From NCBI GenBank assembly GCA_024663395.1, contig JANFAH010000002.1, forward strand, positions 4,960,001-5,024,000: a stretch of 64,000 nucleotides of DNA. Direction: 5' to 3'. The notes beneath the pieces are model-generated. The model saw only the letters and a program-made list of their open reading frames with translations, was not told the origin of the DNA and did not search any database. Source of the DNA: Pisolithus tinctorius (Eukaryota; Basidiomycota; Agaricomycetes; Boletales; Pisolithaceae). The position numbers were made by a program, and so were the translations under genes. Positions 14,970-63,896 of the stretch are shown piece by piece (within the stretch, counting starts at the first letter, position 1; each line of letters opens with the position of its first letter).

Positions 14970-16907
14970 CACGGGATTGTGGGAGAGTTCCTCGTGTAGT
15001 CGTTCGGGTAACGGCAGACTGAACACTAAGCCACAACATGGTACTGACCCAGGCGACACCACCCAAGGGGGGTACCAGTCCACAGCAACCATCATTTGGA
15101 AGTGACTTATTGTAAGCCTTCTTTTGCACTCGCCGGGACACTCGCGGCCAATTTCAAGAGGGTTCGCTCAACCGCGAAAGCGCTGCTAACAGCCGCGTCG
15201 TCCGGTTGTCGGTAGTCCCAGAACCACCGGTTCACACGTAGTGGAGTCCCTTTGCGTAATGCTTCACTCACGTATGTACATGAGCTTATCTTGTTTCACA
15301 TGTACGGGGGACTAGCAATGATCCAAACGATAACGTTGTACCACCGCTATCGTCAAGGGTGGTGCTAATCCTGTGGCCTTCCCTATCTACGGGAAAAGTC
15401 CTTCCGGTGCTTTAACTAACCGGTGTGCCAGTGGTACCCACCCTCATTCTACGGCGCGTACATGTCAATCAAGGATGGTATTACTAGCCAGAAGGGTCGA
15501 AGGATCGAATGGTGAGTTCTCACCGACGTCATGGACCTAAACGAGGGTTTATTGCGAAGCTTCCAAACGTGTGCTAGTATTAGAGTTTGGATCCATACGA
15601 CGGCTCGCCTGAATTGCAGGTTTGAGGCTGTTGCCGGCTGCGAACACGGAGAAGGATATCCGTCTTCCCGGGAGAACGTCTGCCCCTCGGTTTTCCTAGC
15701 AAATCTTGGCTTCCTCTAACACAATGAATCACCTCAACACTGCCCGTATACGTACGAAGAAATGACAATAAAAGAGGTACCATGCAAGCTACTGTATGCC
15801 ACATACGATTCAGGCTATATGGGTAAGCCGTCTGTCTGATGTGGTTTCAAGTGACCCGCGATCAATAGGGTACCTTGCCCTTGGAAGAAAAGTGTGATTG
15901 TGAATTCTAGTAAGACGAAACTTTCTCGTTTGCCGCAACTCTAGTGGCAGAAGGAATACAAGCTGCCGAATGTTGATCACCACTGCTTAGATCAGTAGAG
16001 GAAAAGTGGTCTAATGCCGTTATAGGACTCCGGAAGTACAGGGCGTGGTTTTGGGCGATATATCTAATAAGTGTATAATGGCCGCCCGTCATCGCGATTC
16101 TAAAGACTGAATGAATGGTTCCTGCGGAATGCCGATTAACGGCACCTAGCTCCTCGGGAGGAAGGTTGGGTAGTATTGTTGCCTAGTATCGTTATAGAAC
16201 CCAAGAAGAACATTCAGCAGAGGCTCAAACACTGGATACAACGGAGGGTACTATTCTTGTGATGCTATTTAGGATCTCCATCTGACGTAGGCCATGGGCC
16301 AGGGCGGGTTATCTTTATTTGTGGGTCTTGGCTCATTAGCCCCTGTCCGTTCCCAGGCCCTGTCGGGAACCACTGACGCCCTCTCAAGTATCTCTTCACA
16401 TGTGACTAAAAAAGATGGTGGTGATCCTTCCTCCCTCGGACCTAACCTTAGCCGAAGCGAACAGCAGTTAACTGTACTCTAGTACTGTTATCAGGCGTGT
16501 TGCCAGCTCCACCACGCTCCAACGGTGGGGTCTTTCCAGAATCAGTTTGGATCCGAAGTGCAAGTTCTTCCTCGCTTCCTAGGGATACCTGCGATTCCAC
16601 CGCATCTCGTTCAGAACGTCCATCAGATCATCGGTCATGTGTCCCAGCACCGGTTTATCAAGGGTGGCCCAGTCGTGAGTTTGGGTTCTTCGTGATCTGT
16701 ACGGAAATCCCTTTCAGTGTTTCAGGTCGATCAGAGATCTTCTATTCGGAAGCCAGCTCCCACGCCATTCTCTCCGGTTATGCATCATTTAGCTAAGTAA
16801 CCGAGGCACAGTCTTGCTCACCTGCAGTTAACCGACACGTATTGTGACAAGAAACCAAAGTTCTACTGCTTCAGGATGGGGTAGCCTGATATACTGCTGG
16901 CTTGACC
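14970..16907 (+). repeat. Upstream non-coding part of decarboxylase module A
   Basis: Repeated non-coding DNA in front of decarboxylase copy A, similar in order and sequence to 26620-28250, 30480-31920, 46350-47880 and 51350-52740, and in reverse to 40640-43000 and 56580-58000. It includes two diverged copies of the short repeat around GTTATAGGACTC (cores near 16011 and 16182). No conserved open frame runs through the copies. Confidence 0.7.
15890..16230 (+). repeat. Pair of 160-180 bp tandem repeats, module A
   Basis: Two diverged units with cores at about 16011-16029 and 16182-16200. Each unit has the order TCTAGTAAG, CCGAATG, CCTAG, then the core resembling CCAATGGCGTTATAGGACT. More decayed than in module C. 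Confidence 0.55.
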
Positions 16908-17052
16908 GGATAAAAGGGCGCAGTTTTTTTCATCGTTCCTCAGGCTTGTGAGTCTCACAGCACCTGTTCTCTACCATAAGAGTTACACTCACGGGTCCCT
17001 TTCACCTCTTAGTGCCACCATACCCTCATACTGACTGTGATCAGCAGTAACC
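16908..17052 (+). promoter_or_regulatory. Core promoter of decarboxylase copy A
   Basis: A TATA-like GGATAAAAGGG at 16908-16918 lies 145 bp before the start codon, the spacing kept in all module copies. A pyrimidine-rich stretch and CATACTGAC follow. The 5'UTR intron seen in other copies has lost its donor here (CACGGGTCC instead of CGTGGGTCC), while branch-like and acceptor sequences remain. Confidence 0.6.
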
Positions 17053-18541
17053 ATGTCAGAAATCACCGCCTGCAGATGGCTTCCCGAGGACCCAGCGGTG
17101 GTTGAAGCGTTCGTGAGCAACTTGCTCGTGTGCAGTCGTATTATCCACGGTCGTCACCCTAAAACCCGCATGCGTTTTGCGGAGCCGGGTGAGAACCTGG
17201 AGACGGCGATAAGCAGAACTGACATTCAGTTCGACCTAAATCGCTTGCGGCACCACTATCACGTCGGCCAGGAGCAAGTTTATACTGTCCGCGGATTGCA
17301 TCCTATAGTACAGGAATTTCAAGATTTCATCAAGAACGAGGTTGTGGTCTATACTGCATTCCACGAAATGTTCGAACAAGCTCCCCCACCTCGGGTCCAG
17401 GACCAAGAACAGGTATATAATTTCGACTTTTGTGATTGTTACTCGGCTCATCTCAGTCTAGATCAAAGACTACGAGGACTTGATGGAGATGATCGACACG
17501 AACCTGTCGACGGCACCCAAGTATACTGGTGACCCCGTGAGCGCTATGGTAGCGCGTGTTCCATATTACGGTATCATCTCGCGTTTCTGCAACACTCCCG
17601 CAGGCTATATCGCGTTCACCCATCCCGGAGTCAATGAGAGATTCTCCAAGGTGCTCACGGAATGGTACAGGTTCCTCACGACGCCAGCATCCACCAGTGT
17701 CCTCAACACAAAGGACGGCTGGCTTAGTCCTCCAGCGCTCGAGGCCATTGTCGGAAGTTCTGGTGGTGACCCCACGAAGGATAGGTTTGACCGCATCTTT
17801 ATTTGCGATATCAACCATCCTACCTATGGTTTCAACTCCTATGACGGGTTCTTCATTAGGGAGTTGCATCCCAGATACCGTGCCCCTATTCTACCTGACC
17901 ACCCAGCGATCATCAATTCTGCATGCTGGTCTACTGTCCACAAGGTTTATGGCAACCTCAAGAAGACGGACAGGTTTTGGATCAAAAATACTCCTTACTC
18001 TCTTAACAACATCCTCGCCAAGGATGAGCTTGTTGATACCTTCGTCGGCGGGACCCTTCTCCAGGCTATACTTGACGCTAAAGACTACCACCGCTGGCAC
18101 AGTCCCGTGAATGGTACTGTCGTGAAGACACGCCTAATTTCTGGCGCAACGTATCGTGACTCACCACAAGTCCCGCATCCAACCTATTACGCGGCTCGCT
18201 TGGACGATGACAATGAGGATCTGGATGTCATCGCCCGCTCGCAAGATTTCGTCTCCAACATCTCCGCGCGTGCTTTGGTCTTCATCCAAGCTGATGAGCC
18301 GGTTGGCTTGATGTGCTTCGTGGGTGTTACCTTGGGCGAGATGTCAACCTGCAACATAAACGTCAAGAAGGACCAAAAGCTCAGGAAAGGAGATGAGCTA
18401 GGCCAGTTCCACTTCGGAGGATCTACCTACTGTCTCATCTTCCGCCCCGGCTTGACCGTGATGCCATTTGATCAAGGCGTCAAGGACTTGATGAGATCAA
18501 AGGTGCGAGTTGGCGAAGCCATCCTCAACGTAACAAAGTAG
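17053..18541 (+). CDS. Phosphatidylserine-decarboxylase-like protein, copy A (HRWH type)
   Basis: Pyruvoyl-dependent decarboxylase of the fungal PSD/PsiD-like family; substrate unknown. Exons 17053-17412 and 17462-18541 (49-nt intron) give 479 aa. Order: N-terminal block with CRWLPEDP and HGRHPKTRMRF (residues 8-50); PSDC-type domain with VQEFQDF, FHEMFEQAPPP and, across the intron, TPAGYIAFTHPGVNERF (about 90-230); catalytic PS-decarboxylase domain. DYHRWHSPVNG holds His330 and His333. The self-cleavage motif HFGGSTYCLIF would split Gly440-Ser441, leaving an alpha chain of about 39 residues with an N-terminal pyruvoyl group. No signal peptide or membrane helix seen, so probably cytosolic. 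Unlike the other copies it has Tyr rather than His after GGST. Confidence 0.93.
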
Positions 18542-18900: not shown

Positions 18901-19104
18901 GGGTCATATGTGTACAAGACTAATCGGGTTGGTTTGCGACGGCAGGTATGTTTTAACTCTCGGTACTTGGTAGCTTGGAGCGGGGAGTATATGCTCTCTC
19001 CTTGTTATTAGTTGGGACGGACATAACTAAGTTAGGTTGAATCTCTTTGGACCGAACGAACTCGTGCTCTTCTTCTATCGCTACGTTTGATCGCGTTTTC
19101 CTTG

Positions 19105-20074: not shown

Positions 20075-21690
20075 GTGAACAACACTGACAGTGATTGCTA
20101 TCACATTGACATTGACATTGCTATGGACGAACTTGCTGAAGCCCGAGCTAAACTGGTACTATTAGAAGCACAAGAACGACAAATACTCGAACACCTTTGC
20201 AACGTTCGCTCTGCTGTCCAGGTGCAGAAAAAGAGGGTCGACGAACTCATCGAACACATGATCCCCCCCCTGTTAACCGTCTACCTGTTGCAGCCCTTTA
20301 CCAGATAATCTATCTGGCAGTCAATGATGGTGGGCAGTCGGTCCTTGCCCGTCAGCGCACCAAGAAGGAGTTGGCTAGCGTGTCACATCGTTGGAGAGAC
20401 GTAGTTCTGACATCGCCCGGCCTCTGGACCAATATCACAATTCATCCTCAGTGGTCTGTCTCTTTGGTGTTAGCACACGTGAACAGAAGTCATGAATGTC
20501 CACTTGATGTTGAAATATCCTCCTGGCATTCCCGGGATGATTTGCGAAAATTCTCTCGAATCCTTGGTCTTGTCATCTCTTCTGGATACCGCTGGCGTAG
20601 CCTCATTATTCATGATAACGGCAAGAATTTGGAGGGGAACATCATGAGAACACTTTGGGACGTGCTGTTTCCCTCTCTGAGACGTGCTACCATCCACACG
20701 ACGCAGCAATGTGACTATCTACCGTTCCTTGATCGACACCATGCCCGTATGCTCGAAAATTTAGATCTTGGAGAAAGCATCAAACTTGATCACTTCTTGG
20801 CTCCCGCTAGCCTCAAAACCCTTAGGCTGCAGTGTTCTCCATTAATTGCATCACTGTTGCCATCGAGATCGTCGCTCAGGACGCTGACAGAGCTTTCAAT
20901 CTTTGGGTCGAGTGGAGCTCTACTTCCTGACAGCATCCACTTGCCACTACTCGATTCTCTCACGGTCGCACTCGAAGATCCCCGGTCATTTTTGGCGGCC
21001 ATCGTTACCCCAAGGCTCACTTATTTTAACTACATGCAACCTCCCAAAGAAGACCTCTGTTGGTCGACGGTATTTGCAGATCTTGAGGAAAAGTTCTCAA
21101 ATGTTCAGCATCTCTGCCTTAAAACTCCCGAGAACTCTCCGCTTTACACAAACACAAGTGCTGACGGCGCTTTTGCAATCTGTGCGGCGTTTCCTGGTGT
21201 ACGGCATGCCGAAATGGACGCGTACGAATTCATTTCTTTTTGCTGGGCGGAAGAGGAAGGTAGTTCTAAGGCCATTGCGGATCGCTGGATGCACCTCGAG
21301 CATTTGTCTCTCGAACAGTGCGGCTGCTGGATTCCCGATAGCTTTGTGAAGTGGCTTGGCGATCGACAGGTTGAGGGCCGACCTACCTTGCAAGTGACAT
21401 TGTTTAACTTCGATACTAAAGGCAAGCCAAATTGCCCATGGATGATATCCCTGTACAACTCGCTACATGAGTACTGCCTGCTGGAAATGCATGACGTTCC
21501 GCTGACGCTCCATCTGACTGTGCGCCCTTCTGACTCGGTATGTGTTTTATTCATGCACGTGAAGAGAAAGCCCATCTTTCTGCCCTCGTGGACTTCTCAG
21601 GTCATCTACGGAAATCCTCCTATTCCAGGTATGCTGGCATCAGCAATAAGCACTGAATTCGCACGTGCAACTATCGAAATGGATTTGTGA
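20075..21690 (+). CDS. F-box protein with N-terminal coiled coil (frameshift at a C8 tract)
   Basis: Putative substrate-recognition subunit of an SCF ubiquitin ligase. Residues 17-63 form a charged heptad-like helix (LAEARAKLVLLEAQERQILE). An F-box-like motif follows (VNRLPVAALYQIIYLAV, then ELASVSHRWRDVVLTSPGLW), and a long leucine-rich region of about 400 residues with short LRR-like steps such as LENLDLGESIKLDHFL. It ends at the TGA at 21688-21690. The N-terminal frame and the F-box frame differ by one base; the switch falls at a run of eight C at 20263-20270. One more C would join them. This may be a real mutation, a population polymorphism or a sequencing error. A decayed paralogue lies at 36652-38200 and 3' shards at 44990, 50240 and 59965. 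Confidence 0.75.
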
Positions 21691-23424: not shown

Positions 23425-23633
23425 CGCTCGCGTCTCTCGAGCCTGTATGTGTATGTAAATTAACCTGCCGAGGGAAGACGTACTCTAGCATGAGTATTTG
23501 AGAGGTGAGGACTATCGCAAACCAAGACAATTAGCCTCAACATAAGCTTGAATATTGTTAGTGTACAGATATCACGTCAACTGTTAAATAACCTGGACAC
23601 TCGACCATGATGCATGTCCAATCAGTTCATCCT

Positions 23634-25820
23634 TTATCCAAGGAGACCCCTGACATATTTTATAAGGTCTCTTCCCTACAAAAGAAAACGCATCAGACGA
23701 AATCAACCATCGATATCCAAAAATCCCACTTACCCCTTTACTCTTCACACCGGCTACCATCGCCTCCACGCCTTCCAACTCCTCGTCTCGCCCTCTCTCG
23801 GTACCCTCGCTGCTACCAGAGACGAACCGCGACATTCGTTGTCGCTGACTTAACCCGTGCCGCTGAACAACAGTCAATACGGCCCGCCAACCCTCTACCA
23901 AACCACCGCCATTATTAGGGAGGTTGGATGTACCGGACGTCGTCGCGGAAGGAAGCGATGGTACAGCTGTTGATCGGACGACATACGGACAGTACGAGCG
24001 GTGCTCTTTTACGACATCGAAAGCTCTTCGAGATCGCGAGCCCGATGTCCTCGCTGCTGATGCGAACGCCGACAGGGATTTTCCGTTCGTCGATGACAAA
24101 GGCGCATGCTGCTGTTCCTGTTCCTCACCCATTGAACTCTCGTCGGCGAGCTCTACGGTTGCAAAGCTCCACAACCCCACGCGTCTCTGGCACAGCGGGC
24201 AATGTATGAGTGACATATCCTTTGCTGATGTGGACGACGTTGATAGTCCCATTGCAGATGCACTACTGGGAACCCCGTTGTTCGCGTGGAGTGGGCGAAC
24301 CGGGGATGCGCTGAGTTGTAATCTAGAGGCGCTCCTACCTATACGGGGCGATGCAGACGGGGGTGGCATCGGCGTAGGCGTGGACCCCCGGTCCGTGAAC
24401 GAACGCGAGACAGAACTTGCACGCGAAAGCGCGGGTGTGGACACAGAGGCTACGAACGACCCTGAACGAGACACCGACAAGGACGACATTGGTCGGCGAT
24501 CGTGAGGAGGTGAAGGCGCGGGCTGCCACCCAAAGAGGGCCACGATGAACGAAGTATCTGATAACTCGGCCGCTGGTGGCGGTGCGCTCTCATCGACTTG
24601 CATAGCAGAAGGATCTTCAGAAGGCGGGGTCGGGACAGTGGCCGTTGACACGGCTGAACGAAGGGAGCTCAGCTGCGAAGATGTCTGAGAAATAGGGGTT
24701 AGTAAGTGTCACTGAGAACGAATCTGAGTACGCATACAAGTGGGTGTTTGATGGCGATTTTAGATATGATAGAATCTAGTGCAACAGCGGTAATTCTCAA
24801 GTCGCGAGCAGTGAAACTCGGGGGTTGAAGGGGCACGCGGTACACAGAATCTGTGGGATAGATCAGATTATCCTTGGACGGCACAGGAGGAAGCAATACA
24901 CACCTTCGCATTGTCTCGTCTTCCATGGGCATCCATCCTTGTGCATGTCCACAAGCGAAACGCGTTGTTTTTCGATCAAAGCATTGGCTGTAAACCGAGC
25001 GCAGAACGACAGGGTGGAGAGAAATGTCCTGCTCAGCGGCAATCACACGTTCTTATAACCTACCTTCTTACCGGCTTCCTTGGTCATGCCATCTCGTCCT
25101 GCAAGCACCCACGACACGTCACATATCCCACATACCAACCTATCCTTTCCGTCGTTTACCCATCCACGCTTGGCTGCGGCCACAGCATCGATTTGTGGTG
25201 GCTTGTTGGCATACGTGGAGAGCTTGTACGTGGCAAGGCGAGACAGAAAGGATTGCGTCGAGGAAGGTCTGTATTCGGACGTTGCATGTACTGGAGGTGC
25301 AGAAGAGTGATTGAAGGTAATCGTTTTCTGATTGGACGGAGAACTTTGCGAAGAGCGAGATGCTGTGCGGGCGAGAATGGCGGCAAGGTGAGGTGCGCTT
25401 GTGGAGAGGTTGATGGTGTTTGAGATGCTACCAACGTGTTACCGTTACATTCAGCAAATGGCAGTTCCTGTGTACTAGATGTGAATTGGAACTGACTCGG
25501 GCGAGGAAGTGTGCTTGGTTTCGGTGCGAGACTCTATGCCATATTTTGCGAGTGTCGAGTAGAAAGAGCGGGAGGGATTTGGACGCTTAGCGAGAGGAGG
25601 CTTATCGGCCACGCTACTAATCGACTGCGAGCTGGTCGACGGCGAAACGGCGACGTCCAGTGACTGAATGGCATCTTCGAGTTTCCTCTGCGTTTAAGTC
25701 GTATCAAAAAGGAGACCAACCGACAACATCATCGCAATAGCTGACCTTGGTTGCTCGAATGGAAGACATTGAGGACATTGAAGCGGTTGTCGCTGACGGT
25801 GCTTGGACCTCTGCTGCCAT
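23634..25820 (-). CDS. C3HC zinc-finger / Rsm1-like nuclear protein (NIPA family)
   Basis: Nuclear protein related to fission-yeast Rsm1 (mRNA export) and animal NIPA/ZC3HC1. Seven exons on the minus strand: 25820-25746, 25687-25497, 25427-25072, 24987-24904, 24850-24738, 24684-23734, 23675-23634; 603 aa, all phases consistent. The zf-C3HC domain (about 135-245) starts FLSRLATYKLSTYANKP. It has the Cys pair in RLVCGICDVSWV and the His-Cys-Trp part VDMHKDGCPWKTRQC. A Ser/Pro-rich linker follows, then the Rsm1 domain with CPLCQRRVGLW and VKEHRSYCPYV, and EGWRAVLTVVQRHG. The C-terminus GRDLIKYVRGLLG comes from a 14-codon last exon. Start: ATG before AAEVQAPSATT, the first in-frame Met. This is the only intact copy; at least five fragments lie elsewhere in the window. 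Confidence 0.92.
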
Positions 25821-28396: not shown

Positions 28397-29912
28397 ATGC
28401 CCAAGACTACCGTCTGCAGATGGCTTCCCAAGGACCCATCAGTCATTGACGCATTCGTGAGCGACTTGCTCGAGCGCAGTCGTTTTATCCATGGACGTAA
28501 CCCTAGAACCCGCGCGCGTATTGCAGCGGTGGGAGAGAACTTGGAGAAGGCGATGGGCAAAGCCAAAATCCGGTTTAACCTACGCCGCCTGCGGGCCCAC
28601 TACCATTTCACTCCTGGCCAACCGCAAGTTTATACTGCCCGTGCATTGAACCCTATAGTACAGGAATTCAAAGAATACATTGAGCGGGAGGGTGTCGTCT
28701 ACGCTGCATTCAACCAAATGTTCGAGCAAGCTCCCTCGCCTCAGAACGACGACCAAGCAAAGGTATATAATTTCAGCTTTTTCGTCTATTACATCGCTCA
28801 TTTCAGTCCAGATCGAAGACTATGAGGACTTGATGGAGATGATCGACACGCAGTTGACGGCAGCACCCAGTTATGGCGGAGGCGCGAGTGATATGGCGGC
28901 CGCCGTCCCCTATTACGCTATCATTTCGCGTTTCTGTAACACTCCTGCGGGCTACAGCGCGTTCACTGACCCTGGAGTCAATGAAAGACTTGGCAGGGTG
29001 TTCAACGCATGGAACGAATACCTCAGGTCGGTGGACTCCACCGACGTCATTTACGATGGAGAGGGCGGCTGGCTCAGTACCGCAGCGCTCAATGCTATGG
29101 TCCAGCATGCTGGTGGAGACCCTGGACAGGACACGTTTGACAACTTCTACGTTTGCGATACCACTGATCCTCACTACGGTTTCAAATCCTATGACGAGCT
29201 CTTTGTCAGGGAGTTGAAGGCCGTCCGCCGTGCCGTAGTTTCCCCTGATGACACGGCGATCGTCAACTCCGCATGCACGTCTACGGTCTACGAGATTTAC
29301 TACAACCTTAAGAAGACAGACAGATTCTGGATCAAAGATACCCCCTACTCCCTCAACCACATGCTCGCTGAGGACGATCTTGTTGACACATTCGTCGGCG
29401 GGACTGTTATCCAGGCTATGCTTGCATCTCTCGACTACCACCGTTGGCGCAGTCCCGTAGACGGTACCGTCGTGAAGACGCGCCTCATTTCGGGCTTGAC
29501 GCATCCTAACCCACCACCAACCTACTACGCTGCTTGCTTGGATGATGTCCAAGACGATTTTGACGTCATTACTCGCTCGCAGGACTTCGTCACGGCCATA
29601 TCTACTCGTGCTTTGATCTTCATCCAAGCTGAGGATCCCGTTGGCTTGATATGCTTTGTGGGTGTTGGCTTGTGCGAAGTGTCGACTTGCGAAATTACCG
29701 TCAAGGAGGGTCAAGTGCTCAAGAAGGGCGATCAGCTGGGCATGTTCCATTTCGGAGGATCTACCCACTGCCTCGTCTTTGGTGGTGACGTGACTGTGAC
29801 GCAAATCATGCAGCCAGGCAAGGACGACGACGGTAACGACACCGAAGTGCCATTGGTGGGATCGAAGGTGCGGGTCGGCAAAGACATCCTCACGGTCTCA
29901 AAGCAGACTTGA
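28397..29912 (+). CDS. Phosphatidylserine-decarboxylase-like protein, copy B (HRWR type)
   Basis: Same family and two-exon layout as copy A: exons 28397-28762 and 28812-29912 (49-nt intron), 488 aa. The N-terminal TTVCRWLPKDP block and the PSDC-type domain (VQEFKEY, FNQMFEQAPSP, TPAGYSAFTDPGVNERL) are intact. The catalytic domain ends in HFGGSTHCLVF with predicted cleavage before Ser439. The active-site His motif reads DYHRWRSPVDG: His332 is kept but residue 335 is Arg instead of His, by one A-to-G change (CAC to CGC). The C-terminal tail has an insert with QPGKDDDGNDTEVPLVGSK that copies A, C and E lack but D and G share. A remnant of a further decarboxylase 3' end lies just downstream. Confidence 0.93.
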
Positions 29913-30049: not shown

Positions 30050-30254
30050 TACTTGGTTCAGCTTCGTGTGTGCCGCTGACGTCCCCGGTCGAACAACGCG
30101 CCAGCGGTTGAAAGGAGATGGGTTCGGCCAGTTCCACTTCGAAGGATCTACCCACTACTTGCTCTTCCGCTGTGGTGTGCCTTATCTCGCCGACCCCGAG
30201 CAATACACCACTGATAAGACCGAGAGTAGGAATCGGCAAACATTCTCTCTGTAG
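30050..30254 (+). pseudogene. 3' remnant of a decarboxylase gene
   Basis: About 200 bp downstream of copy B reading LKGDGFGQFHFEGSTHYLLF, clearly the cleavage-site region of the same family with Gly changed to Glu (EGST). It ends in a stop at 30252-30254. No upstream catalytic part is present. The same shard, more decayed, follows copies C, E and F, so it was part of the module before amplification. Confidence 0.75.
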
Positions 30255-32061: not shown

Positions 32062-33550
32062 ATGCCCAGAACTACCGTCTGTAGATGGCTCCCCAAGGAC
32101 CCGGCAGCCGTTGAAACATTCGTGAGCGACTTGCTCGTGCGCAGTCGTGTTATCCATGGCCGTGACCCTAAAACCCGCGCGCGTGTTGCGAAGGTGGGGG
32201 AAAGCCTGGAGACGGCGATAAGCAGAACCGGCATTACGTTCGACCTAAGCCGCCTGCGGTGCCACTATCGCTTCACTGTTGGCCAGGAGCAAGTTTATAC
32301 TGTCCGTGGACTGCACCCTATAGTGCAGGAATTCCAAGATTACATTGAGAGGGAGGGTGTGGTCTACGCTGCGTTCAATGAGATGTTCGAGCAAGCTCCC
32401 CCGCCTCAGAACGAGGACCAAGAGAAGGTATGTATTTTCGACTTTTGTGACTATTACTCTGCTCATCTCAGTCTAGATCGAAGATTATGTGGACTTGATG
32501 GAGATGATCAATACGAACCTGACGACAGCCCCCAGTTTTGGTGAGGGTGTGAGCGCTATGGTGGCAGCTGTTCCCTATTACGGTATCATTTCGCGTTTCT
32601 GCAACACTCCTGCGGGCTATAACGCGTTCACCCACCCCGGAGTCAATGAGAGATTCTGTAGGGTGTTCACTGCATGGCACGAGTACCTTACCTCGACAGC
32701 GTCCACCAACGTCATCCACGATGGAGATGGCGGTTGGCTCAGTACCGCAGCGCTCAATGCCATGGTTCAAAGTGCTGGTGGCACTCCTGATCAGGATACG
32801 TTTGACAACTTCTTCATTTGCGACACCAGCGACCCTCACTACGGGTTCAAATCCTATGACGAGCTCTTCGTCAGGGAGTTGAAAGCCGTCCACCGTGCCG
32901 TGGTCTATCCCGACAACCCAGCGATCGTCAACTCTGCATGCTCGTCTACCGTCCACATGCTTTACTACAACCTCAAGAAGACGGACAGATTCTGGATAAA
33001 AAATACCCCCTACTCCCTCAACCACATCCTCGCAGAGGATGAGCTTGTTGACACATTTGTCAACGGGACTCTTATTCAGGCTATGCTTGGATCTCTCGAC
33101 TACCACCGCTGGCGCAGTCCCGTGAATGGTACTGTCGTGAAGACACGCCTCATTTCTGGTGCGACCCATCCTAACCCACCGCCTACCTACTACGCGGCTT
33201 GCTTAGACGATGACCATGAGGATCTGGACGTCGTTTCCCGCTCGCAGGACTTTGTCTCAAACATTTCCACGCGTGCTTTGATCTACATCCAAGCTGAGGA
33301 GCCCGTTGGCTTGATGTGCTTCGTGGGAGTTGGTTTGGGCGAGGTGTCGACCTGTAACGTTGTCGTCAACGAGGGTCAGGAGCTCAAGAAGGGAGATGAG
33401 CTGGGCCAGTTCCACTTTGGCGGATCTACCCACTGTCTCATCTTCCGACCTGGCGTGACTGTGACGCCGATTGACCAGGACGGCCAACCTTTGGAGGGAT
33501 CGAAGGTGCGGGTCGGCAAAGATATCCTCATCGCAACAAAGCAGCCTTGA
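32062..33550 (+). CDS. Phosphatidylserine-decarboxylase-like protein, copy C (HRWR type)
   Basis: Exons 32062-32427 and 32477-33550 (49-nt intron), 479 aa. The N-terminal block TTVCRWLPKDP and HGRDPKTRARV is followed by the PSDC-type domain (VQEFQDYIEREGVVY, FNEMFEQAPPP, TPAGYNAFTHPGVNERF) and the catalytic domain. The motif DYHRWRSPVNG keeps His332 but has Arg335 in the second His position. HFGGSTHCLIF predicts cleavage before Ser439, giving an alpha chain of about 41 residues. The C-terminus (SKVRVGKDILIATKQP) lacks the Asp-rich insert of B, D and G and resembles copy A. Expected to be a cytosolic alpha/beta pyruvoyl enzyme if self-processing works with Arg335. Confidence 0.93.
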
Positions 33551-33900
33551 AATGATAACTTCGGTCGCGTGTCTGTATAACCTCAGATTTAAACAGTGTC
33601 ATTGCTCGCGTGTACGATAGCAAAGTTGAATTGGTGCCTTGGCGTGTTTGTCTACAATGTAACATTTCAGGCGACGGCAGGAATGCTATCTTTCAGCGTT
33701 TCACTTGGTTCAGTGTGAGGTGTCAACAACGTGGTAGTTAAAGGTAGATAAGTTGGACCGGTTCCACTTCCGAGGGTCTAACCGCTGCCTCATCTGCTGC
33801 TCTGGCTTATGTCGCTGATCCCTCAGGGCGAGGACGCCACATTATTAGTAGGATTGTAGTTGCGAACCGGCGAACATAGTTTCTGTCTAAGGTGTTTCCT
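33551..33900 (+). pseudogene. 3' flank of module C with decarboxylase shard
   Basis: The conserved 3' flank (to about 33720) is followed by the same shard as at 30050. It is recognisable by TTCCACTTCCGAGGGTCTAACC at 33762 and the downstream AACCGGCGAACA, but with frame breaks. Non-functional. Confidence 0.6.
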
Positions 33901-35035: not shown

Positions 35036-35440
35036 AACCTGCAATTCTACGCGAAGGAGATCTGTGCTGACTCGCACTTTCGATCCCATCAACCTTGGCC
35101 GTCTTGGTTAGTCGGCGTCACGGTCAGGTCAGGTCGGAAGATGCAGGCAGTTGGGTAGATCCTCCAGAGTCCTACGAGCGGAAAACGACATCTAAACCCT
35201 CATGGGAAGAGCAAGTTGGATGTGGTGGTCTGAGGCTCGTCTTCATGACAGTGCAAGTACGGGACTGCGCCAACGGTAGTGGTGGAAAGATCCAAACATC
35301 GCCAGGACAAGAGCCTAGCTCAGCGCCCTCGGACGATCGTCGAGTCGTTATGCAAAACAATGTCGCGGTGAATGGCTTTCGACTCCTTGACGGAGAGCCC
35401 ATCGTAGGACTTGAAACCGTAATGAGGGCCACCATCGGCA
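35036..35440 (-). pseudogene. Decarboxylase remnant, antisense
   Basis: On the minus strand this holds disconnected pieces of the decarboxylase second exon. The cleavage-site end lies near 35085-35165, the HRWR region near 35255-35290 (still CGC, i.e. Arg), and the PHYGF/YDELF region near 35395-35435. Large internal deletions and frame breaks. It runs directly into a plus-strand C3HC fragment. Confidence 0.7.
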
Positions 35441-43089: not shown

Positions 43090-44130
43090 CCCATGAGCCA
43101 CGACACCCAGTCTTTCAACGTCTTCGACATCTCCCGTTCGAGCAACCAAGGTCAGCTATTGCAAAGATATCCGTCGGTCTCGGACTCTCGTTCATGATAC
43201 GATTTAAACGCAGAGCAAACTCCAGGATGCAATTCAGTCGTCGGACGTCGTCGCGTCGTCGCCGACAGGGAAATCGAATAGCGAGAAATCTCCTCGGGCT
43301 AAGCGCCCCCATCTCTCCCGCTCTTTCTACAGGACACTCGCAAAATATGGCATAGAGTCTCGTTTCGATACCAAGCACGTTTCCTCTCCTGAGTCAGTTC
43401 CGATTTACTTCCAGTAAAGGTAGGGGCTTCCATTTGCTGAACGTAATGGTGGTATGTAATACAATGGTCGCATCTCAAACGTCGTTGACCTCTCCAAAAG
43501 CGCACCCCACTTCGCCGTCATTCTCGCCCGCACAACATCCTGCTCTTTCTCGAAGTTCTCCATCCGAACTGAAAACAGTTGCTTTCCATCACTCGCCTGT
43601 ATCTCCAATTGATGCAGTGTCCGAATAGAGATCCTTGTGGACCCAATCCTTTCTCTCCACGCATGCCAATAAATTGATGCTGTGGCTGCATCCAACTGCG
43701 CATGGATGAACGATGAAAAGGACAGGTTGGTATGAATTTGTGACATGTTATAGGTGCCCGCAGGATGAGATGGCATGGCCAGAGAAGGCCAGTAGGAAGG
43801 CAGCTTTTAGGAACGTGCAATTGCCGCCGAGTAGAACATTTCCTTCCATACTGTTGGGTTGGGATTCTCTGCGCACGATTTACAATTAATCCGTTTGTCG
43901 AAAAACAATGCTCTTCGCTTGCGGACATGCACGGAGTCCGTGGAAGGCGTGACAATACAATGGTATATATCATTTCGCCCAGTGCACTGTCCGGGGGTGG
44001 TCTAATGTCATCCAACAGATTCTACGTACCGCGTGCCCCTTCAAGCTTCAAGCTTCAATCCCCGAGTTTCACGGTTCATCGGATGAGAACTACCGCCACC
44101 TTAACTGTGTACACCCTCGCAAGTATTTCT
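43090..44130 (+). pseudogene. C3HC/Rsm1 zinc-finger pseudogene, exons 1-5
   Basis: Plus-strand copy running from the end of exon 1 (CGAGCAACCAAGGTCAGC at 43140) through exon 2 (KLQDAIQSSDVVASSPTG, ALAKYGIES-like region) and exon 3, then a degenerate zinc-finger region (43690-43790), exon 4 (43895-43965) and exon 5 (to about 44115). Several stops, for example TAG after ACAGTGTCCGAA near 43627. The Rsm1 half is missing here; a Rsm1-half fragment lies at 44670. Confidence 0.8.
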
Positions 44131-44149: not shown

Positions 44150-44669
44150 AATGACGGCCTTTTGTGGTGACACCAATCTTGGCTCAAGTGATGAGCAGTC
44201 AGCCATACTCTGGTGCTACAATCAGGTGCGGTCCACGGCATGATCATCGGTATCGGCAATGTGTCCCGGATCAGTTTATAGGGCATTCTAATCGTGAGTG
44301 TAGATTCTCCGTGATCTGCAAGGAATTCCGTTTCTGCATTCCAAGTCGGTCAGACCTTCCATTCGGAAGCCTTCTCTCAGTTGCTACTATTCTTATCATT
44401 CCAGGCAGCTGGAGATATTTTCCCCAGTGTCAACTGATCCGAAGTTCTTCGGACAAGAAGTCGAAGCTCCAGTCGTGCTATTGTCGTCAGAATGGTAGTC
44501 GGATAAAAGGGTTTAAGCACTTGGCTCGTTCCTCAGGCTTGTCTCTGCAATACCAGTTCCCTATCACAACAGTCATACTCGTGAGTTCGTTTCGCTTCGT
44601 AACACCACCTCATTTTCATACTAACCACAGTCAACATCGACCATGAGCAAAACCACCGTCTGCAGATGA
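44150..44669 (+). pseudogene. Decarboxylase copy reduced to promoter and eight codons
   Basis: A complete module promoter is present: GGATAAAAGG at 44501-44510, 142 bp before the ATG at 44643. The reading frame MSKTTVCR ends at a TGA (44667-44669), where the other copies continue WLP (TGG), because the sequence switches there to a C3HC/Rsm1 fragment. A clean breakpoint between two duplicated genes. Confidence 0.8.
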
Positions 44670-48028: not shown

Positions 48029-49604
48029 ATGGACTTGGCAGTTTTCGTATTGGCCCCTGTAGTGCAGGAGTTCAAAAATCTCATTGAGGAGGATGGTGCG
48101 GTCTACACCGCATTCGACGAGATGTTCCGGCAAGCGGCAGCGGTGGAGGCGGCAGTGGCAGCAGAAGCAGCAGCGGAAGTAGCAGCGACAGCGGCAGTCG
48201 CAATGGAAGCGGCACGAGCAGCGGATGTGGAAGGAGCAGCGGTTGCGGCGTTAGCAGCGAAGACAGCAGCAGCAGCAGTAAGGTCGGCGGCTGCGGCGGG
48301 AACGGTGCAAGCTGCAAGGCAAGCGGAAGCAACAGCGAATGCCCAAGTGCTGGCGGCAGCGGAAGGGGTAGTGGCAGCGCAAGTGCTAGGAACAGCGGCA
48401 ACGGCAGCAGCAGTGGAAGCGGCAGCAGCAACGGCAGCGGTAGCGGCGGCGGCAAAAGCAGCGGCAGCAGTAACAAAAGCGGAAGCCCAGGTATATATTT
48501 TCGGTTTTTGTGGCAGTTACGCCCCTCATATCAGTTCAGGTCGAAGACTACGTGGAATTGATGCTGGTGATCAACACCCTTCTTTTGACACCACCTAGAT
48601 ATGGTCTAGGCCCAAGTGTCATGGCGTCTAGTGTTCCGTTCTATGCCGTCATCTCCCGTTTCTGCAACACCCATGCTGGCTACGAGGCGTTCACTAATCC
48701 CAGAGTCAATGCAAATTTATGCGGAGTGTTTACCGCGTGGCGTACTTTCCTTGAGTCACCGGGATCCAGGGTCGTCCTTGGTAATGGGCCGGGCGGCTGG
48801 TTCAGTGACGATGCACTCCGTGCTATGGTCGAGAGCGCTGGTGGAGGCCCCGATCAAACGTTTCAGGACTTCTATGTTTGCATCCCCGATGCTGCCCACT
48901 ACAATTTCACTTCCTATGACAACTTCTTTACCAGGGAATTACGCCCCGATCAAGTTATTCCTCCCGACGGTGATTCGTCGATCGTTAGATCTGCATGTTC
49001 GTCTACCGTCCACAGCTTTTACACCGGCCTCAGGAAGACAGAGAGATTCTGCATCAAAAATACCCCATACTCCCTCCGCCACATCCTCGCAGGGGATGAT
49101 GCTGTTGACACCTTCGTCGGCGGGACTCTGCTCCAGGCTATGCTTGGATGTACCGACTACCACCGTTGGCACAGTCCCGTGAACGGTACTGTCGTAAGGA
49201 CACGCCTGATTTCCGGCACGGAGGATCCACCATCAGTCCCCCATCCAACCTACTTCGCTGGTCTCTTAGACGGCGAACATAAGGATCCAGACGTCATTAC
49301 CCGCTCGCAGGACTTTGTCACTGCCATATCTACCCGTGCCTTGATCTTCATCGAAGCCCAGGAGCCCATCGGCTTGATGTGCTTCGTGGCTGTTGGCTTA
49401 TGCGAGGTGTCGACTTGCGATATTACCGTCAGTGAGGGTGATCCGCTCGTTAAGGGAACTCCGCTGGGTACGTTCCGCTTTGGAGGATCTACCCACTGCC
49501 TCATCTTCCGACGCGGCCTGAACGTGACGCCGATTAACCCAAATTTGGTGAAATCGAAAGTGCAAGTTGGCCAAAATATTCTCAACGTAGCAGCACAAGT
49601 TTAA
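48029..49604 (+). CDS. Phosphatidylserine-decarboxylase-like protein, copy E (HRWH type, alanine-rich insert)
   Basis: Exons 48029-48490 and 48540-49604 (49-nt intron), 508 aa. The usual first 85 or so residues with the CRWLP block are missing: the ATG is followed at once by the PSDC start (VVQEFKNLIEEDGAVYTAF). Where other copies have a 13-residue linker (EQAPPPQNEDQEK in C), copy E has about 119 residues made mostly of Ala with some Val, Glu, Thr and Lys. Exon 2 is complete and the most diverged of the set. It keeps DYHRWHSPVNG (His362, His365) and FGGSTHCLIF with predicted cleavage before Ser471; just before this, HF is RF. It lacks the Asp-rich insert. The catalytic half looks functional; the insert may be a flexible or helical linker. 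Confidence 0.88.
48133..48489 (+). repeat. GCN/AGCGGC low-complexity tract coding the Ala-rich insert
   Basis: About 357 bp of imperfect trinucleotide repeat, mainly GCA, GCG and GGA. In the coding frame it reads mostly Ala. The next plus frame is also open through it and reads Ser/Gly-rich, and the minus strand reads Leu/Pro-rich. The intron donor of exon 1 follows directly. Confidence 0.85.
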
Positions 49605-50235: not shown

Positions 50236-50239
50236 TATC

Positions 50240-51345
50240 AGTACTTCTTATGCGTTCTAGCATACCCATGATAGGAGGCCGTTCTTGTTCCGAGGAGTCT
50301 ACAAGAGGTAGAGAAATGGGTCATCACTTCGCATGCAGGGATGAATGCCGAAACAGACTTTCCGTTCGTCGATGGCAATGGTATATGCTGCTGTTCCTGT
50401 TTCTCACTCGTCATGCCATCCTCGGCTGGCATTACGACGGTCGCAAAGCTCCACAATCCACATGCCTTTGGCATAACGGACAATGCACTAGTGACATCCT
50501 TTGCTGACGTCGATAGTCCCACCGCAGGGACGAACCAGCGACGCGCTGGCTTGCACTTGGGAGGCGCTCCTACCTATGAGAGATAATGCAGACGTGCATG
50601 GCATTGGCGTAAGCATGCTTTCCCTGTCCGTAAGCGAACGCGAGACAGAACTTGCGAGCAAGAGCGCCTGTGTGGGGCATCGACGCAGAGATTACAAACG
50701 ATCCTAAACGGGACCCTGTCATGCACATTGGACGGTATACGCCGGTGATCATGGAGAGGCGAAGAAGGGGTGGCCTGCCAGTCAAAAAGGGTGACGATGA
50801 AGGACGTATCTGACAACTCGGACGGTGGTGGCCGTACGCTTTCATCGACTTACGTAGCAAAAAGATCAAGCATGGGCCGTTGACGCAGCTGAACGAAGGA
50901 AGCTTGGCTGCGACGGTGTCTGAGAAACAAGTATTAGAAAAAGTCCCCGTGAACGCATACGAGTGTACATACGGGTATATCTTTCATGACGATTTTAGAA
51001 ATCATAGGGACCAGTGCAACGGCTGCCAGTGGTCCTCGAGTCGCGTGCCGTGAAACACGGATTGAAGGGGCATGCAGTACACGGAATCTGTGAGATGGCT
51101 TATTATCCTTAGTACACTCTACGCCGTTCAACGCTTAGCCAAAGTACATGTGCGGAAGAGAAGGATAACGAGTGTAACGAGCCTACTGAATGTAAAACGC
51201 GGGAAAGCTTGGGGAAAGCATCATGCATCGTGATCAGGTACAAATTACCAAACTGTATACAGAGCGACGCGACGTCTTGCTCGGCGGCGATTACACATTC
51301 CTCAAACCTACCCAGCTCGCCCTGTAAGCACCCATGACACGTCAC
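50240..51345 (-). pseudogene. Reversed F-box end plus C3HC/Rsm1 pseudogene fragment
   Basis: Minus strand: an F-box 3' shard (about 50240-50330) and a C3HC exon 6 copy (50330-50900). The exon 6 copy contains ELSD-like SDTSFIVTLFDWQA, LWSFATV and a frameshifted Ser-rich linker. An exon 5 copy (about 50985-51095) and an exon 3/4 junction piece (51240-51345) follow. It lacks the zinc-finger core and is broken in several frames. Confidence 0.75.
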
Positions 51346-51349
51346 AGGT

Positions 51350-52740: not shown

Positions 52741-52880
52741 CGGATAAAGTGGCTCAGGTTTATCGTTCGTTCTTCAGGCTTTTGTCTCTAATACTCGCTG
52801 CCCATCACAATATTCATACTTGTGAGTCCATTTTGCCTTCAGTACCGCTACATTCATACTCACTGTAATCAGCATTGACC

Positions 52881-53705
52881 ATGGACCCAAGTACTATTAC
52901 GAGCCAAAAAACTACTGTCTGCAGATGGCTTCCCGAGGACCCGTCAATCGTTGCAGAATTCGTGAGCGACCTGGTTCAGGTCAGCCGCGTCCTCCATGGA
53001 CTTCACCCTGTTACCCGTGAGCCTTTCGCGAGGCCGGGAGACAAACTGGACGAAGAGGTGTTACGCCGTGCCCAAATTGATTTTGACATAAAACGCCTAG
53101 ACATGTACAGGAAGAAATAGAGTACGGAAAAGAGGGAATATTGGACAGCTTAGAAAGATGGGACAGAGGAGAAAGATAGGAAAGGTGGGAGCTATGGAAT
53201 CAGTCTGCGTTTGTGTGTAAGAGTCTTCATTGATCAAACGTTGACACTTCGTCGGCGGAACTCTGTTACAGGCTAGGCTTAGATTACAGCCTCTGGCGCG
53301 AGGTAGGGTTGCGAGGACATGCCTCATTTCCGGCACGACGAACTCAGTACCAGTCCCATATCCAACATATTGCATTGCTTCTTGGACAACAATCATATTG
53401 GTCTGGGCGACCTTTCCCGCTCGCAGGTCATCTCCACTCGCTTTGGTCTTCGTCGGCGCTGCGCCGCCCGTTGGCTTGATGTGCTTCGTCAGCGTTGGCT
53501 TGGGTAAGGTGTCGACTTGTGAAATTACCATCGATGAGGATGATGTATTCCTGAATGGAAATCCGCTGGGCATATTCTAGTGACTTGGAGGATCTACCTT
53601 CAGCCTTAGCTTCCGACGTTTCCTGAACGCGACGACGTGCATGCGGCATCGACAGGATCGAAAGTGCGGGCCGACAAATATATTCTCAGCGTAGAACCAC
53701 TTTGA
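52881..53705 (+). pseudogene. Decarboxylase pseudogene, copy F
   Basis: The start is kept: MDPSTITSQK then TTVCRWLPEDPSIVAEFVSD, for about 75 codons. Then the frame runs into unrelated sequence and stops at 53118-53120. Sequence similarity resumes at about 53241 (ACACTTCGTCGGCGGAACTCTG) and runs to 53705. It covers the catalytic C-terminal part with VGLMCFVSVGL and KVSTCEITI, but the GGST region is destroyed (stop at 53578-53580 and loss of the FGGST codons). The whole PSDC domain and the first half of the catalytic domain are deleted. Confidence 0.85.
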
Positions 53706-54916
53706 GGCGATAGCTTCGATCGTATGTTAGTGTAATCTTACAAACATTGTCTTTCTGGCGCGTACGATGGCAAGGTTGAATCGGTGTCTCGACCTGTTTG
53801 CAAACGGTGCAACCTTTCAAGCATCTGACGGAAATGCCAGGTCCCAGCATTTTACTTAGTTCAGCCTAACATCCATACTCAAATAACATTCTAGGGGTCG
53901 AAAGGAGATGTGTTTGATTTTCCCACTACCTCATCTTTCACGGTGTTGTTAGTGCATTTAACACCAATCCTTGACGACGGCACATAACGGCGACAGCAGG
54001 TAGAACAAGACTGTACAGACTACCCATTCTAGAACATGCACGAAGATCTGCCAAAAATGCGGCGGGCTTGTCTGTGCCAGAGACAGCAGAGTGGGGATGC
54101 TGGTAGTCGGGCAAGTGACTTGACCATGTCGGCCCTCGAGTGCTCGAGCGCGAAATCATTCCACGAATCTATCGTTGGGATATGCGCGGGAGACCTTGGT
54201 GAGGGAAAACCGCTCGAGGCGCTCCGCAGTGGACATAACGCTGTCTTCCCTTTCCGCCAGGCAAAAAGCAACGAGATAAGCAATGAAACCAAATACGTCG
54301 TGGGTTCCATGGGTACAGGTAGGGGAGCAGAGGGGGGGGTGTACCCGTGGGTTCGGAGGCTGCATTCTATTGGCATACATACGATAACTGCCAGACTTTA
54401 TGTCTCGCCTTAGTCTCTGGGTGGCAGGTGGGTAAACGATAAAACTTTCATCTCTTGCTGCTCACAAAGAAGGCTGCCGAAGAAGATTGTAGCCCTGCAA
54501 GTACTGGCATGGCAGATACTCATCTACTTTCGACAACCTGGGTCGTTCAAGTGCAGGGAACCTTAAGCCAAGCCAAGTGGAGTGCTGGGGCCCGGCAATG
54601 CTGTCGTGAACCTCGGTAAAATATGTAACCATTGTTGCAAACCTGATCTGATTAACCCTACGCAACAATAATCCTACCAATGGTGTTACCCTCTCCCTGC
54701 GAGATCAGTCAACGCAGGCATCCCAGAGCGGAAGATGAGAGTAGAGAGAGACGCTAAGGGATGGTACTGCTGTCGTAGCGCGTCAGGCCCTGAAATGTTA
54801 CATCCGACATGCAAACACGTCAAGACACCAATTCAATATTGCTATCGTACACACGAGCGATCGAGACATGATACTACTTGTAAGTTTTACATCAACTTTC
54901 CATCGAAGTTATTACC
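53706..54916. other. 3' flanks of modules F (plus) and G (minus) facing each other
   Basis: Plus-oriented module 3' flank to about 54070, then about 350 bp of anonymous sequence with a G9 run near 54332. From about 54440 the reversed 3' flank of module G follows (CCAAGTGGAGTGCTGGGGCC near 54576; GCTATCGTACACACGAGCGA near 54839). No gene supported. Confidence 0.5.
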
Positions 54917-56435
54917 CTAAGCCGCCTCTACGGTGAGGATGTCTTTGCCAACTTGCACCTTCGATCCCACCAACGGCACTTCGGTGTCGTTACCGTCGTC
55001 GTCCTTGCCTGGCTGCATGATTGGCGTCACAGTCAGGCCACCGCGAAAGACGAGGCAGTGGGTGGATCCTCCGAAGTGGAACATGCCCAACTCGTCTCCC
55101 TTCTTGAGCACCTGACCCCTCTTGGCGGTAATTTCGCAAGTCGACACTTCGCATAAGCCAACGCCCACGAAGCATATCAAGCCAACGGGCTCCTCAGCTT
55201 GGATGAAGATCAAAGCACGAGTAGATATGGCAGTAACAAAGTCCTGTGAGCGGGTAATAACGTCGAAATCTTCATGGTCATCATCCAAGCAACCAGCGTA
55301 GAAGGTTGGTGGTGGGCTATGATGCGTCAGGCCCGAAATGATGCGTGTCTTCACAACAGTACCGTTGACAGGACTGCGCCAACGGTGATAGTCGAGAGAT
55401 GCAAGCATAGCCTGGATAATGGTCCCGCCGGCGAACGTGTCAACGAGGTCATCCTCTCCGAGCATGTGGTTGAGGGAGTACGGGGTTTCCTTGATCCAAA
55501 AGTCGTCTGTCTTCTTGAGGTCGTAGTAAAGTTGGTAGACGGTAGACGTGCATGCAGAGTTGATGATCGCCGGATTGTCAGGATAAACAACGGCACGGTG
55601 GATGGGTTTCAGCTCCCTGACGAAGAGGTCGTCATAGGAGTTAAAACCGTAGTGAGGATCGCTAGTATCGCAAATATAGAAATCCTCAAACGCTTGCTGC
55701 TCAGGGTTCCCACCAGCGTGCACGACCATGGCATTAAGCGCTGCGGTACTGAGCCAGCCGCCCTCTCCATCGTGAATGACGTTCTTGGACGCCGATGACG
55801 TGAGGTGCACGTTCCATGCCAAGAACACCCTCCCGAATCTCTCATTGACTCCAGGGTGGGTGAATGCGCTATATCCCCCAGGAGTGTTGCAGAAACGCGA
55901 AATGATGGCGTAAAGGGGAACAGAGGCCGCCATTTGGCTCGCACTGTCCCCGCCATGGGTGGGCGCTGTCGTGAGGATCGTGTCGATCATCTCCATTAAG
56001 TCTACATAGTCCTTGATCTAGCCTGAAATGAGTGGCGTAATGATGATCAAAGATGAATTTATATACCTTTTCTTGACCCGGGCTCTGAGGCGGGGGAGCT
56101 TGCTGGAACATCTGCTTGAACGCAGCGTAGACCACGCCCTCCCTCTCAACGTAATCTTGGAACTCCTGGACTATAGGGTGCAATGCACGGACGGTGCAAA
56201 CTTGCGGCTGGTCGACGGTGATGGGGCCGTAGTAACACCGCAGGCGGCGCATGTCAAACCTCATGCCGGCTTTGCTTATTGCTGTCTCCAGGTTCTCCCC
56301 GACATTGGCGAAACGCACGCGAGTTTTAGGGTCACGTCCATGGATAAGACAACTTCGCTCAAGCAAGTCGCTCACGAATGCGTCGACGACTGCCGGGTCC
56401 TTGGGAAGCCATCTGCAGACGGTAGTTTTGGGCAT
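54917..56435 (-). CDS. Phosphatidylserine-decarboxylase-like protein, copy G (HRWR type, inverted)
   Basis: Minus-strand copy. Exons 56435-56067 and 56017-54917 (49-nt intron), 489 aa. N-terminal TTVCRWLPKDPAVVDAF and HGRDPKTRVRF; PSDC-type domain VQEFQDYVEREGVVYAAF, FQQAPPP; then VPLYAIISRFCNTPGGYSAF (TPAG changed to TPGG). The His motif is DYHRWRSPVNG with Arg337 in the second His position. HFGGSTHCLVF predicts cleavage before Ser441. The C-terminal tail has the same Asp-rich insert (QPGKDDDGND) as B and D. B, D and G therefore form one subgroup by insert and by Arg, with C sharing only the Arg. Confidence 0.93.
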
Positions 56436-56579
56436 GGTTAATGCTGATTATCGTCAGTATGAAGGTGTGGTAGTAAGGCAAAAGGGACTCACGAGTATGA
56501 ATATTGCAATGGGGAACAGGTAGTGCAGAGACAAAAGTCTGAGGAACGAACGAACGCTCTGAGATCTTTTATCCGATCC
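56436..56579 (-). promoter_or_regulatory. Core promoter and 5'UTR intron of decarboxylase copy G
   Basis: On the minus strand GGATCGGATAAAAGA (about 56579-56565) lies 131-144 bp before the ATG. Predicted intron 56492-56444 (49 nt; GTGAGT donor, CATACTGACG, CAG acceptor). Confidence 0.6.
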
Positions 56580-58110
56580 AGCCAGCCAAAGCATATAGGG
56601 CAGGCCATCCTGAAGCAGTAATACGATTGGAGCTTTGGCTTGTGGTCGCCAGAACTTCGTGTCAGTTGACCATGGGGCGGACATGATTGCGCTCCGGCTA
56701 TGTGGAATGATGTGTAACCAAGAAAGAATGGTCACAAGTACGATCGACCCGGAACACCGAACGGACTTCCCCACAGGTCACTATACTCGCAATTAGACCA
56801 CCCGATGAACACATCACCGATAATCAGAAAGATAATCATGAACCAGCCAGCATTGCAGGGCCTTACCCCAGGAAAACATGGAAGAGATTGCGCTTCAGGT
56901 CCAACTCGATCCGGAAGGATGGTACACACCCGACCGCAGCACGAGGTCCTGGCTAACCGCTTCACCAAGATTGGTTCCAAGGCGAAAGGCAGTCTCCAAT
57001 AGACGGAGAGATATTTGTAATGGCGTACTGAAGTGCTGAGCAAGGACAGGGGATAAAAACAACGGTGACAAAGATCCATGGGTAAAGATACACAGCTCAA
57101 GCAAGCCCAAGAGCCCGATCCGATTAGTGTGACTTAATGCTTTTGAGCTTCCTCCGTATGTTATTCTTGGATCCTATAACGTCATTGGACAACTTAATAC
57201 CAATACCCAACATTCGTGAGCGGGGAACTAGTCAGTGTTGATCCGCGTTCGGCAGGCATGATTCTTTCTATCATTAGATTCGCAGCGAATGAGAATACAC
57301 TCTTACTAGATACAACGCCTAAGGGAGGCCCCGCTCTTCTTAAGTCCTATAATGCCATTGGTCGATAATAATACCAACAACCTTCTTCGACATCTTAGGC
57401 ACTGTTGATCAGATATCGTTCACTCTGTTACTAGAATTGAGGCGGACGAGAACGCTTACTAGTGATCAAAACGACGCCCTTCCTCCAAGAGCAAGGTATA
57501 CCATTGATCATGGGAGGTCTGCAATTATAACCAGATGGCATTTATTGGATAGACCAAATCGTCGTCGTAAAGCAGCCTGCACAAAACTTCTTCTTTCATT
57601 TCGTCATGCATATATGGATAATCAGGTGTCTAGAGGAAGAAAAGGCTTGTTAGGAAAATCGAGGGGCAGGTTGGTGGGAAAAAGCTGTTAGTCTTCGGTT
57701 GCAAACGTCCAATTGGTCTTGACATCAGTCAGCTTCAGATCTAAATATCAGTATATACCGACACCTTTGCCAATGAAAAAGCCCCCGTTCGAACCTTCAA
57801 CTCTTCTGACAAGGTAATATAATCTTCGACTGACAGTTATGGGTCGCAGAATGAGGGTACTACCGACATGCTGGCTAGTCCAGACCACCGAAAGGGGCAA
57901 GGTCACAGGATCAGCCCCACTCTCGACGATATTAGTAGTGCATCGTCATCGTTTAGATCAGTCCGGAGAACCTCGCCGTGCTGTGATCGATAGCAGGGTG
58001 TGTAGTGTCTAACAAAGATGAGATGGCATAGTTAGGCGGGCCGATATAGGTAATCGACAGCAAGCAGGATATGGTTGTGTCGCTCCGTTCACGATTTAGC
58101 AGTTTGCAGC
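56580..58110 (-). repeat. Upstream non-coding part of decarboxylase module G
   Basis: Reverse copy of the module upstream region. Repeat cores (reverse of CCAATGGCGTTATAGGACT) near 57170-57188 and 57344-57362. The far end (about 58010-58110) is a shard of the C3HC exon 3/4 junction, as at the left ends of modules E and F. Confidence 0.68.
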
Positions 58111-63893: not shown

Positions 63894-63896
63894 TAA

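Follow-up and report, generated by a model that had tools for sequence, protein, structure and literature searches.

Known decarboxylases and the Pisolithus array

The closest described systems to the genes considered here are PsiD, the L-tryptophan decarboxylase of Psilocybe (PDB 8x4q, 8zia), an Aspergillus oryzae arginine decarboxylase annotated as PsiD-like (PDB 9jer, 9jf5, 9jfn), and the phosphatidylserine decarboxylase (PSD) of E. coli (Psd; PDB 7cnw, 6l06), which has the same catalytic core fold and whose pyruvoyl chemistry would apply by homology. We analysed a 64,000-nucleotide (nt) stretch of the Pisolithus tinctorius genome (contig C2, positions 4960001-5024000, referred to here as the window; assembly of 92.5 Mb in 221 contigs), which contains six intact genes of the PSD superfamily, A, B, C, D, E and G. 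The array to which they belong is real and retained, and it represents an expansion, at the level of the genus, of an enzyme family already known. We consider it likely that the ~105-kb array encodes PsiD-like pyruvoyl-type decarboxylases whose main duplications predate the split between P. tinctorius and P. orientalis, and that their substrates are probably amino acids.

The array differs from PsiD in that (i) all six window genes carry GGST, the motif reported in the preliminary description of this DNA, where PsiD carries GGSS, (ii) the array is tandem whereas PsiD is one gene in a pathway cluster, and no psilocybin-type neighbours were present among the open reading frames (ORFs) scanned, and (iii) the array includes a form, gene E, with an alanine-rich insert. 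Identity to the A. oryzae enzyme is 30%, as against 36% to PsiD, and each of the six genes has more alignment columns in common with PsiD than with the A. oryzae enzyme, although this is a slight lean and not a test of specificity. The A. oryzae enzyme forms the outgroup in our 74-row tree.

Within the literature covered the enzyme family is known, but neither a diversified array of this kind in an ectomycorrhizal genus nor the alanine-rich E form seems to have been described. The word 'decarboxylase' is absent from the available main text of the paper comparing Pisolithus genomes (PMC10066745), and no such array is mentioned in titles or the opening parts of abstracts on Pisolithus together with phosphatidylserine decarboxylase or tryptamine, in mostly non-subscription literature. 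Pisolithus is a model ectomycorrhizal genus, and a retained, diversified PsiD-like set makes amines a product class to look for in a symbiont. With tryptophan and arginine members of the family in the PDB, the paralog series could also show which residues set the substrate.

Six PsiD-like genes in the window

The intact genes in the window are as follows:

17053..18541, + strand: gene A; exon 1 17053-17412, 49-nt intron, exon 2 17462-18541; 479 amino acids (aa)
28397..29912, + strand: gene B; exon 1 28397-28762, exon 2 28812-29912; 488 aa
32062..33550, + strand: gene C; exon 1 32062-32427, exon 2 32477-33550; 479 aa
38964..40488, - strand: gene D; exon 1 40488-40117, exon 2 40067-38964; 491 aa
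48029..49604, + strand: gene E; exon 1 48029-48490, exon 2 48540-49604; 508 aa; altered N-terminus
54917..56435, - strand: gene G; exon 1 56435-56067, exon 2 56017-54917; 489 aa

The outline given in the preliminary description was borne out: a two-exon structure with a 49-nt GT-AG phase-0 intron could be modelled for all six genes, D and G are inverted, and the array in the window fits within 40 kb (39.4 kb from the ATG of A at 17053 to the ATG of G at 56435). The N-terminal block said to be common to all six is present in five; most of it is gone from E, which carries an alanine-rich stretch in frame. Public protein P0001 is identical to the gene A product, and in the catalytic exon the other five window proteins are 23 to 40% different from C.

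The domains, predicted fold and catalytic residues all fit the PsiD-like branch of the PSD/PsiD-like family to which the genes had been provisionally assigned. Exon 2 of gene A matched PF02666 with 106.5 bits (cut-off 22) and PF12588 with 84.8 bits (cut-off 23.4), and exon 1 scored 26 bits. Both profiles also matched at the other window genes, E being matched by PF12588 only from its second exon. The two Pfam domains, PSDC and PS_Dcarbxylase, thus occur in one protein, as is characteristic of PsiD-like enzymes, and the predicted fold is that of PsiD. The active-site alignment comprised 136 rows, namely 120 public proteins, 14 rows from P. tinctorius, PsiD and 9jer, with a few duplicates. In this alignment all six genes agree at the Asp of SYDxxF, at the first His in YHRW and at the GGST Ser.

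Against solved structures, gene C scored 198 bits with PsiD and 26 bits with E. coli PSD, while a control PSD exon from elsewhere in the same genome scored the opposite way. Canonical PSD exons were found on contigs C10, C23 and C6 and at 732 kb on C2, and none of the PF12588 matches listed fell at these loci. Genome-wide, PF02666 matched 55 pieces and PF12588 matched 36, with several pieces possible per gene. The array genes fell below the cut-off of the NCBIfam PSD equivalog, but so did the control PSD exon, these models being built for prokaryotes.

The full array is retained

The array continues past the window, giving eight intact genes over ~105 kb counted from A:

C2:5048737-5050225: outer intact gene (5049-kb gene)
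C2:5082360-5080676: outer intact gene (5080-kb gene)
C2 near 5060, 5065, 5072-5073 and 5075 kb: broken array pieces

A second group of genes, with ~50% identity, lies on contigs C33 and C3 and at 626 kb on C7. C7 also carries an intact near-copy of C (dN 0.002, dS 0.064), and these two form the only near-identical pair.

Purifying selection is evident in the intact genes. The ratio of nonsynonymous to synonymous change (dN/dS; Nei-Gojobori, catalytic exon) was 0.23-0.46 in all 15 pairs among the six window genes, and 0.04-0.55 over 36 pairs when the two outer genes and the C7 copy were included. In simulations that mutated C randomly up to the divergence observed, only 0-3 of 1000 runs remained stop-free for each of the seven genes compared, so the intact frames exceed chance expectation. 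The array genes are maintained.

The observed/expected CpG ratio was 0.92-1.11 in the six window genes (exon 2 only for E) and 0.91 in the C7 copy. The two outer array genes were lower, at 0.66 and 0.79, and the five dead relatives of C described below ranged from 0.43 to 0.72; outer genes and dead copies overlap in range, and the window genes lie above both. The 5049- and 5080-kb genes, with their lowered CpG, also have Cys or Gly in place of the Arg of YHRW, and these two genes are perhaps in early decay.

The main duplications predate the split from P. orientalis

In the 74-row tree the array genes group with Pisolithus, Scleroderma and Astraeus proteins (SH-like approximate likelihood ratio test, SH-aLRT, 99). 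Each of A, B, D and E, and also the broken 5072 gene, has a P. orientalis protein as its sister; the C group, in which P. orientalis P0029 lies among C, the C7 copy and one dead copy, adjoins P. orientalis P0007; and G joins the D pair, with no P. orientalis partner of its own among the rows used. A 39-row tree, made without 35 of these rows (P0051, P0029, the clade-2 rows and every row from fungi other than Pisolithus, Scleroderma and Astraeus), gave the same partners for A, B, C, D and E, although it carried a long-branch warning for P0046, P0032 and P0070 and its deep nodes are unsure. A single P. tinctorius clade was rejected by the approximately unbiased (AU) test (p-AU 4e-12), the group tested comprising 11 P. 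tinctorius rows, among which are the public models P0009 (a dead copy) and P0025 (the broken 5072 gene). The partners in the tree and the AU rejection together indicate that the main duplications predate the P. tinctorius/P. orientalis split. The expansion is therefore not species-specific, contrary to what had been proposed.

Other Pisolithus species also have array-type proteins. Among the best 120 of 1791 matches there were at least nine such rows from P. orientalis, seven from P. marmoratus, four from Pisolithus sp. B1, two each from P. albus and P. microcarpus, and one each from P. thermaeus and P. croceorrhizus; since rows are 90%-identity clusters, these counts are lower bounds. Five P. 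marmoratus rows seem to lie on one contig, as do four P. orientalis rows, which suggests that these species also have arrays. B is 99.1% identical to P. orientalis P0024 over 436 aa, as against ~81 to 92% for A, C, D and E and their partners; the high identity of B may reflect recent exchange or stronger constraint. An aldo-keto reductase considered as a calibrator for this value had no clear P. orientalis ortholog.

The E form

In our model, gene E begins with seven residues followed by a late part of the common exon 1, and then continues in frame through 119 alanine-rich residues to the intron:

48134-48490, + strand: alanine-rich part of gene E, within exon 1

The 5080-kb gene is built likewise, its alanine-rich part being 148 residues long, and P. 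orientalis P0030 has a 119-residue insert of which 105 residues are identical to E, without a gap (its catalytic exon is 85% identical). AlphaFold places the P0030 insert in two long helices (residues 23-89 and 93-151, mostly with a predicted local distance difference test score, pLDDT, of 50-75), so that the conserved E-type insert is predicted to form a helical hairpin. Arguing against a coding role, P0031, the public model of E, and P0028, that of the 5080 gene, omit all or most of the stretch, and as two of the three forward frames of the E stretch are stop-free, its openness alone is weak support for coding. However, the gap-free retention of all 119 residues in E and P0030, with 105 identical, supports coding sequence over intron. 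In a search with P0030, only P0030 itself, among the 51 matches listed, covered more than 75% of the query; the search scored the 8000 candidates sharing most words, a set that repeats may have crowded.

Upstream block and broken copies

Each intact gene in the window is preceded by a similar proximal block:

16633..17052, + strand: proximal upstream block of A; the same block lies ahead of the ATGs of B, C, D, E and G

The ~420 nt ahead of the start codon can be aligned among the six genes, the broken copy F, the copy on C7 and both outer genes, and an ATAAA box is visible by eye in all 10 rows; the block was absent from the one clade-2 row aligned. This block is probably a proximal promoter that was duplicated together with the gene. 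Of the non-coding cassette thought to stand before every gene, it is this proximal part that holds up, the distal part being common only patchily. A second gene hidden in the cassette was considered and rejected, as tblastn with two cassette ORFs found nothing in the other copies but matches interrupted by stops or gaps.

The remaining pieces in the window are:

52908..53864, + strand: F, a broken copy with partial exon 1 and exon 2, and stops
35054..35427, - strand: broken exon-2 copy
30066..30182, + strand: 3' shard of exon 2
33741..33812, + strand: 3' shard of exon 2, weak (protein E-value 0.03; 69-nt DNA matches)
44251..44668, + strand: orphan upstream cassette with no decarboxylase exon detected

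F and the item at 35.0 kb are broken decarboxylase copies, as first described. The item at 44.6 kb, listed with them, aligns only with the upstream cassette, and tblastn with exons 1 and 2 of C found no decarboxylase piece there. Repeated gain and loss of copies in a local expansion was nevertheless rightly recognised.

Away from the array, C1 and C11 each carry two of the five dead relatives of C, and C53 carries the remaining one. In all five a 5-nt duplication at the same place shifts the frame, so they probably multiplied after the gene had died. Relative to positions where C and its C7 copy agree, C-to-T or G-to-A substitutions make up 80-86% of the changes in the dead relatives, and 77-81% of these substitutions are at CpG; no such bias was found between C and the C7 copy. 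The C unit has matching ends in C, in the C7 copy and in those dead copies that were inspected. We do not claim the unit as a transposon, because no clear terminal repeats or target duplications were seen and the copy number is low.

The dead relatives fall within three regions of ~100-160 kb (C1:1.39-1.55 Mb, C11:1.58-1.69 Mb and C53:0.09-0.19 Mb), which have another repeat of ~536 nt in common, found only there among the matches listed. The two C11 copies have ~7.6 kb in common at 94%, and just past this repeat is an ORF that looks by eye like a tyrosine recombinase (L051, ~1400-1930, minus strand).

Proposed function and alternatives

The array genes are most likely self-cleaving amino-acid decarboxylases, judging from their sequences. 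Each would be made as a proenzyme in which a PSDC domain at the N-terminus is followed by a PSD-type catalytic domain at the C-terminus. Judging by homology, this chain would cut itself at GG|ST and the new N-terminal serine would become the pyruvoyl group; an amino acid would then bind this group as a Schiff base, lose CO2 and be released as an amine. Tryptophan and arginine are possible substrates, as leads from the solved relatives only. The array probably grew by duplication of units consisting of proximal promoter and gene, with inversion and decay. We infer self-cleavage, an amino-acid rather than a phospholipid substrate, and paralogs that now differ in substrate, regulation or assembly. 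A dosage effect, raised in the preliminary description, draws a little support from the near-identity of C and C7, but the other paralogs have diverged; the 23 to 40% differences, the varied residue after YHRW and the large insert in one gene favour divergence over dosage.

Some points weigh against this assignment. At the position following YHRW, A and E have His, as does PsiD; B, C, D and G have Arg, and the A. oryzae enzyme has Asn. The matching His of E. coli PSD participates in self-cleavage, and processing could therefore be different in the four genes with Arg; however, the Asn of the solved A. oryzae enzyme suggests that this His is non-essential in this branch. In addition, the genome was searched exon by exon and the lists of loci may be incomplete, and a spore-induced PSD signal in P. 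microcarpus is ascribed to lipid metabolism in the available text of one study, with the gene unspecified (PMC5310086).

A fuller version of the proposal, which we hold to be possible but doubtful, is that these are genus-level decarboxylases with diverged substrates that make amines for signalling or defence in ectomycorrhiza or spores, and that the E branch represents a new enzyme form whose assembly or location is altered by an alanine-rich helical hairpin (119-148 residues) grafted into the N-terminal domain.

It is unlikely that the array genes are strict tryptophan decarboxylases supplying tryptamine for an indole product or auxin. Their nearest solved relative is PsiD. Hypaphorine, an indole alkaloid that acts as a signal, derives from tryptophan. 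Its production by P. tinctorius is recorded by a title in a reference list (PMC6941825). However, GGSS has been called unique to PsiD in the part of one study available to us (PMC6121855), whereas the genes here have GGST, and a PsiD-like enzyme with arginine as substrate exists, judging by its PDB title. No P450, kinase, methyltransferase or transporter domain was found in 26 distinct window ORFs and exons (the scan began at ORFs of ~150 aa), and a psilocybin-type cluster is, within that scan, not supported. Furthermore, in the available text of a feeding study, tryptophan-fed P. albus and P. orientalis gave tryptophan, indole-lactic acid, indole-acetic acid and indole-ethanol by high-performance liquid chromatography, but not tryptamine, which thin-layer chromatography in the same study could not separate from tryptophan (PMC6941825).

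That the array provides extra phosphatidylserine decarboxylases, raising phosphatidylethanolamine supply in e.g. spores, is very unlikely. Superfamily membership, the NCBI name (phosphatidylserine decarboxylase) and the P. microcarpus spore signal noted above would agree with it, but the six proteins are far closer to PsiD than to PSD while the PSD exon of the same genome shows the reverse, and PSDC accompanies the array genes and their relatives, with none listed at the C10, C23, C6 and C2:732-kb PSD loci.

An assembly artefact or a functionless relic is scarcely credible in spite of the many broken copies inside and past the window and the five dead relatives elsewhere, given the eight intact genes, the low dN/dS, the stop-free frames, the P. 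orientalis partners in the trees, the recording of A, D, E and G each on two contigs among public proteins, the 100% match of the 5049- and 5080-kb genes to Marx 270 proteins recorded on another contig, and the PacBio reads that underlie the public Pisolithus genome assemblies according to the available text (PMC10066745), one of which is presumably the assembly used here.

Neighbouring features in the window

Other features are interleaved with, or adjoin, the decarboxylase genes:

23584-25782, 35448-36188, 43114-44057 and 50343-51110: NuBaID-type zinc-finger gene (PF08600, PF07967) and similar fragments
20083-21690 and 36659-38190: 512-residue ORF, F-box-like by eye with no Pfam match; the two are 67% identical in DNA
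62829-63281: DDE transposase match (PF13359)

The transposase match lies in the last part of the window (60001-64000), where CpG is 0.47 and 0.17 of expected, and this part is a putative decayed transposon adjoining the array.
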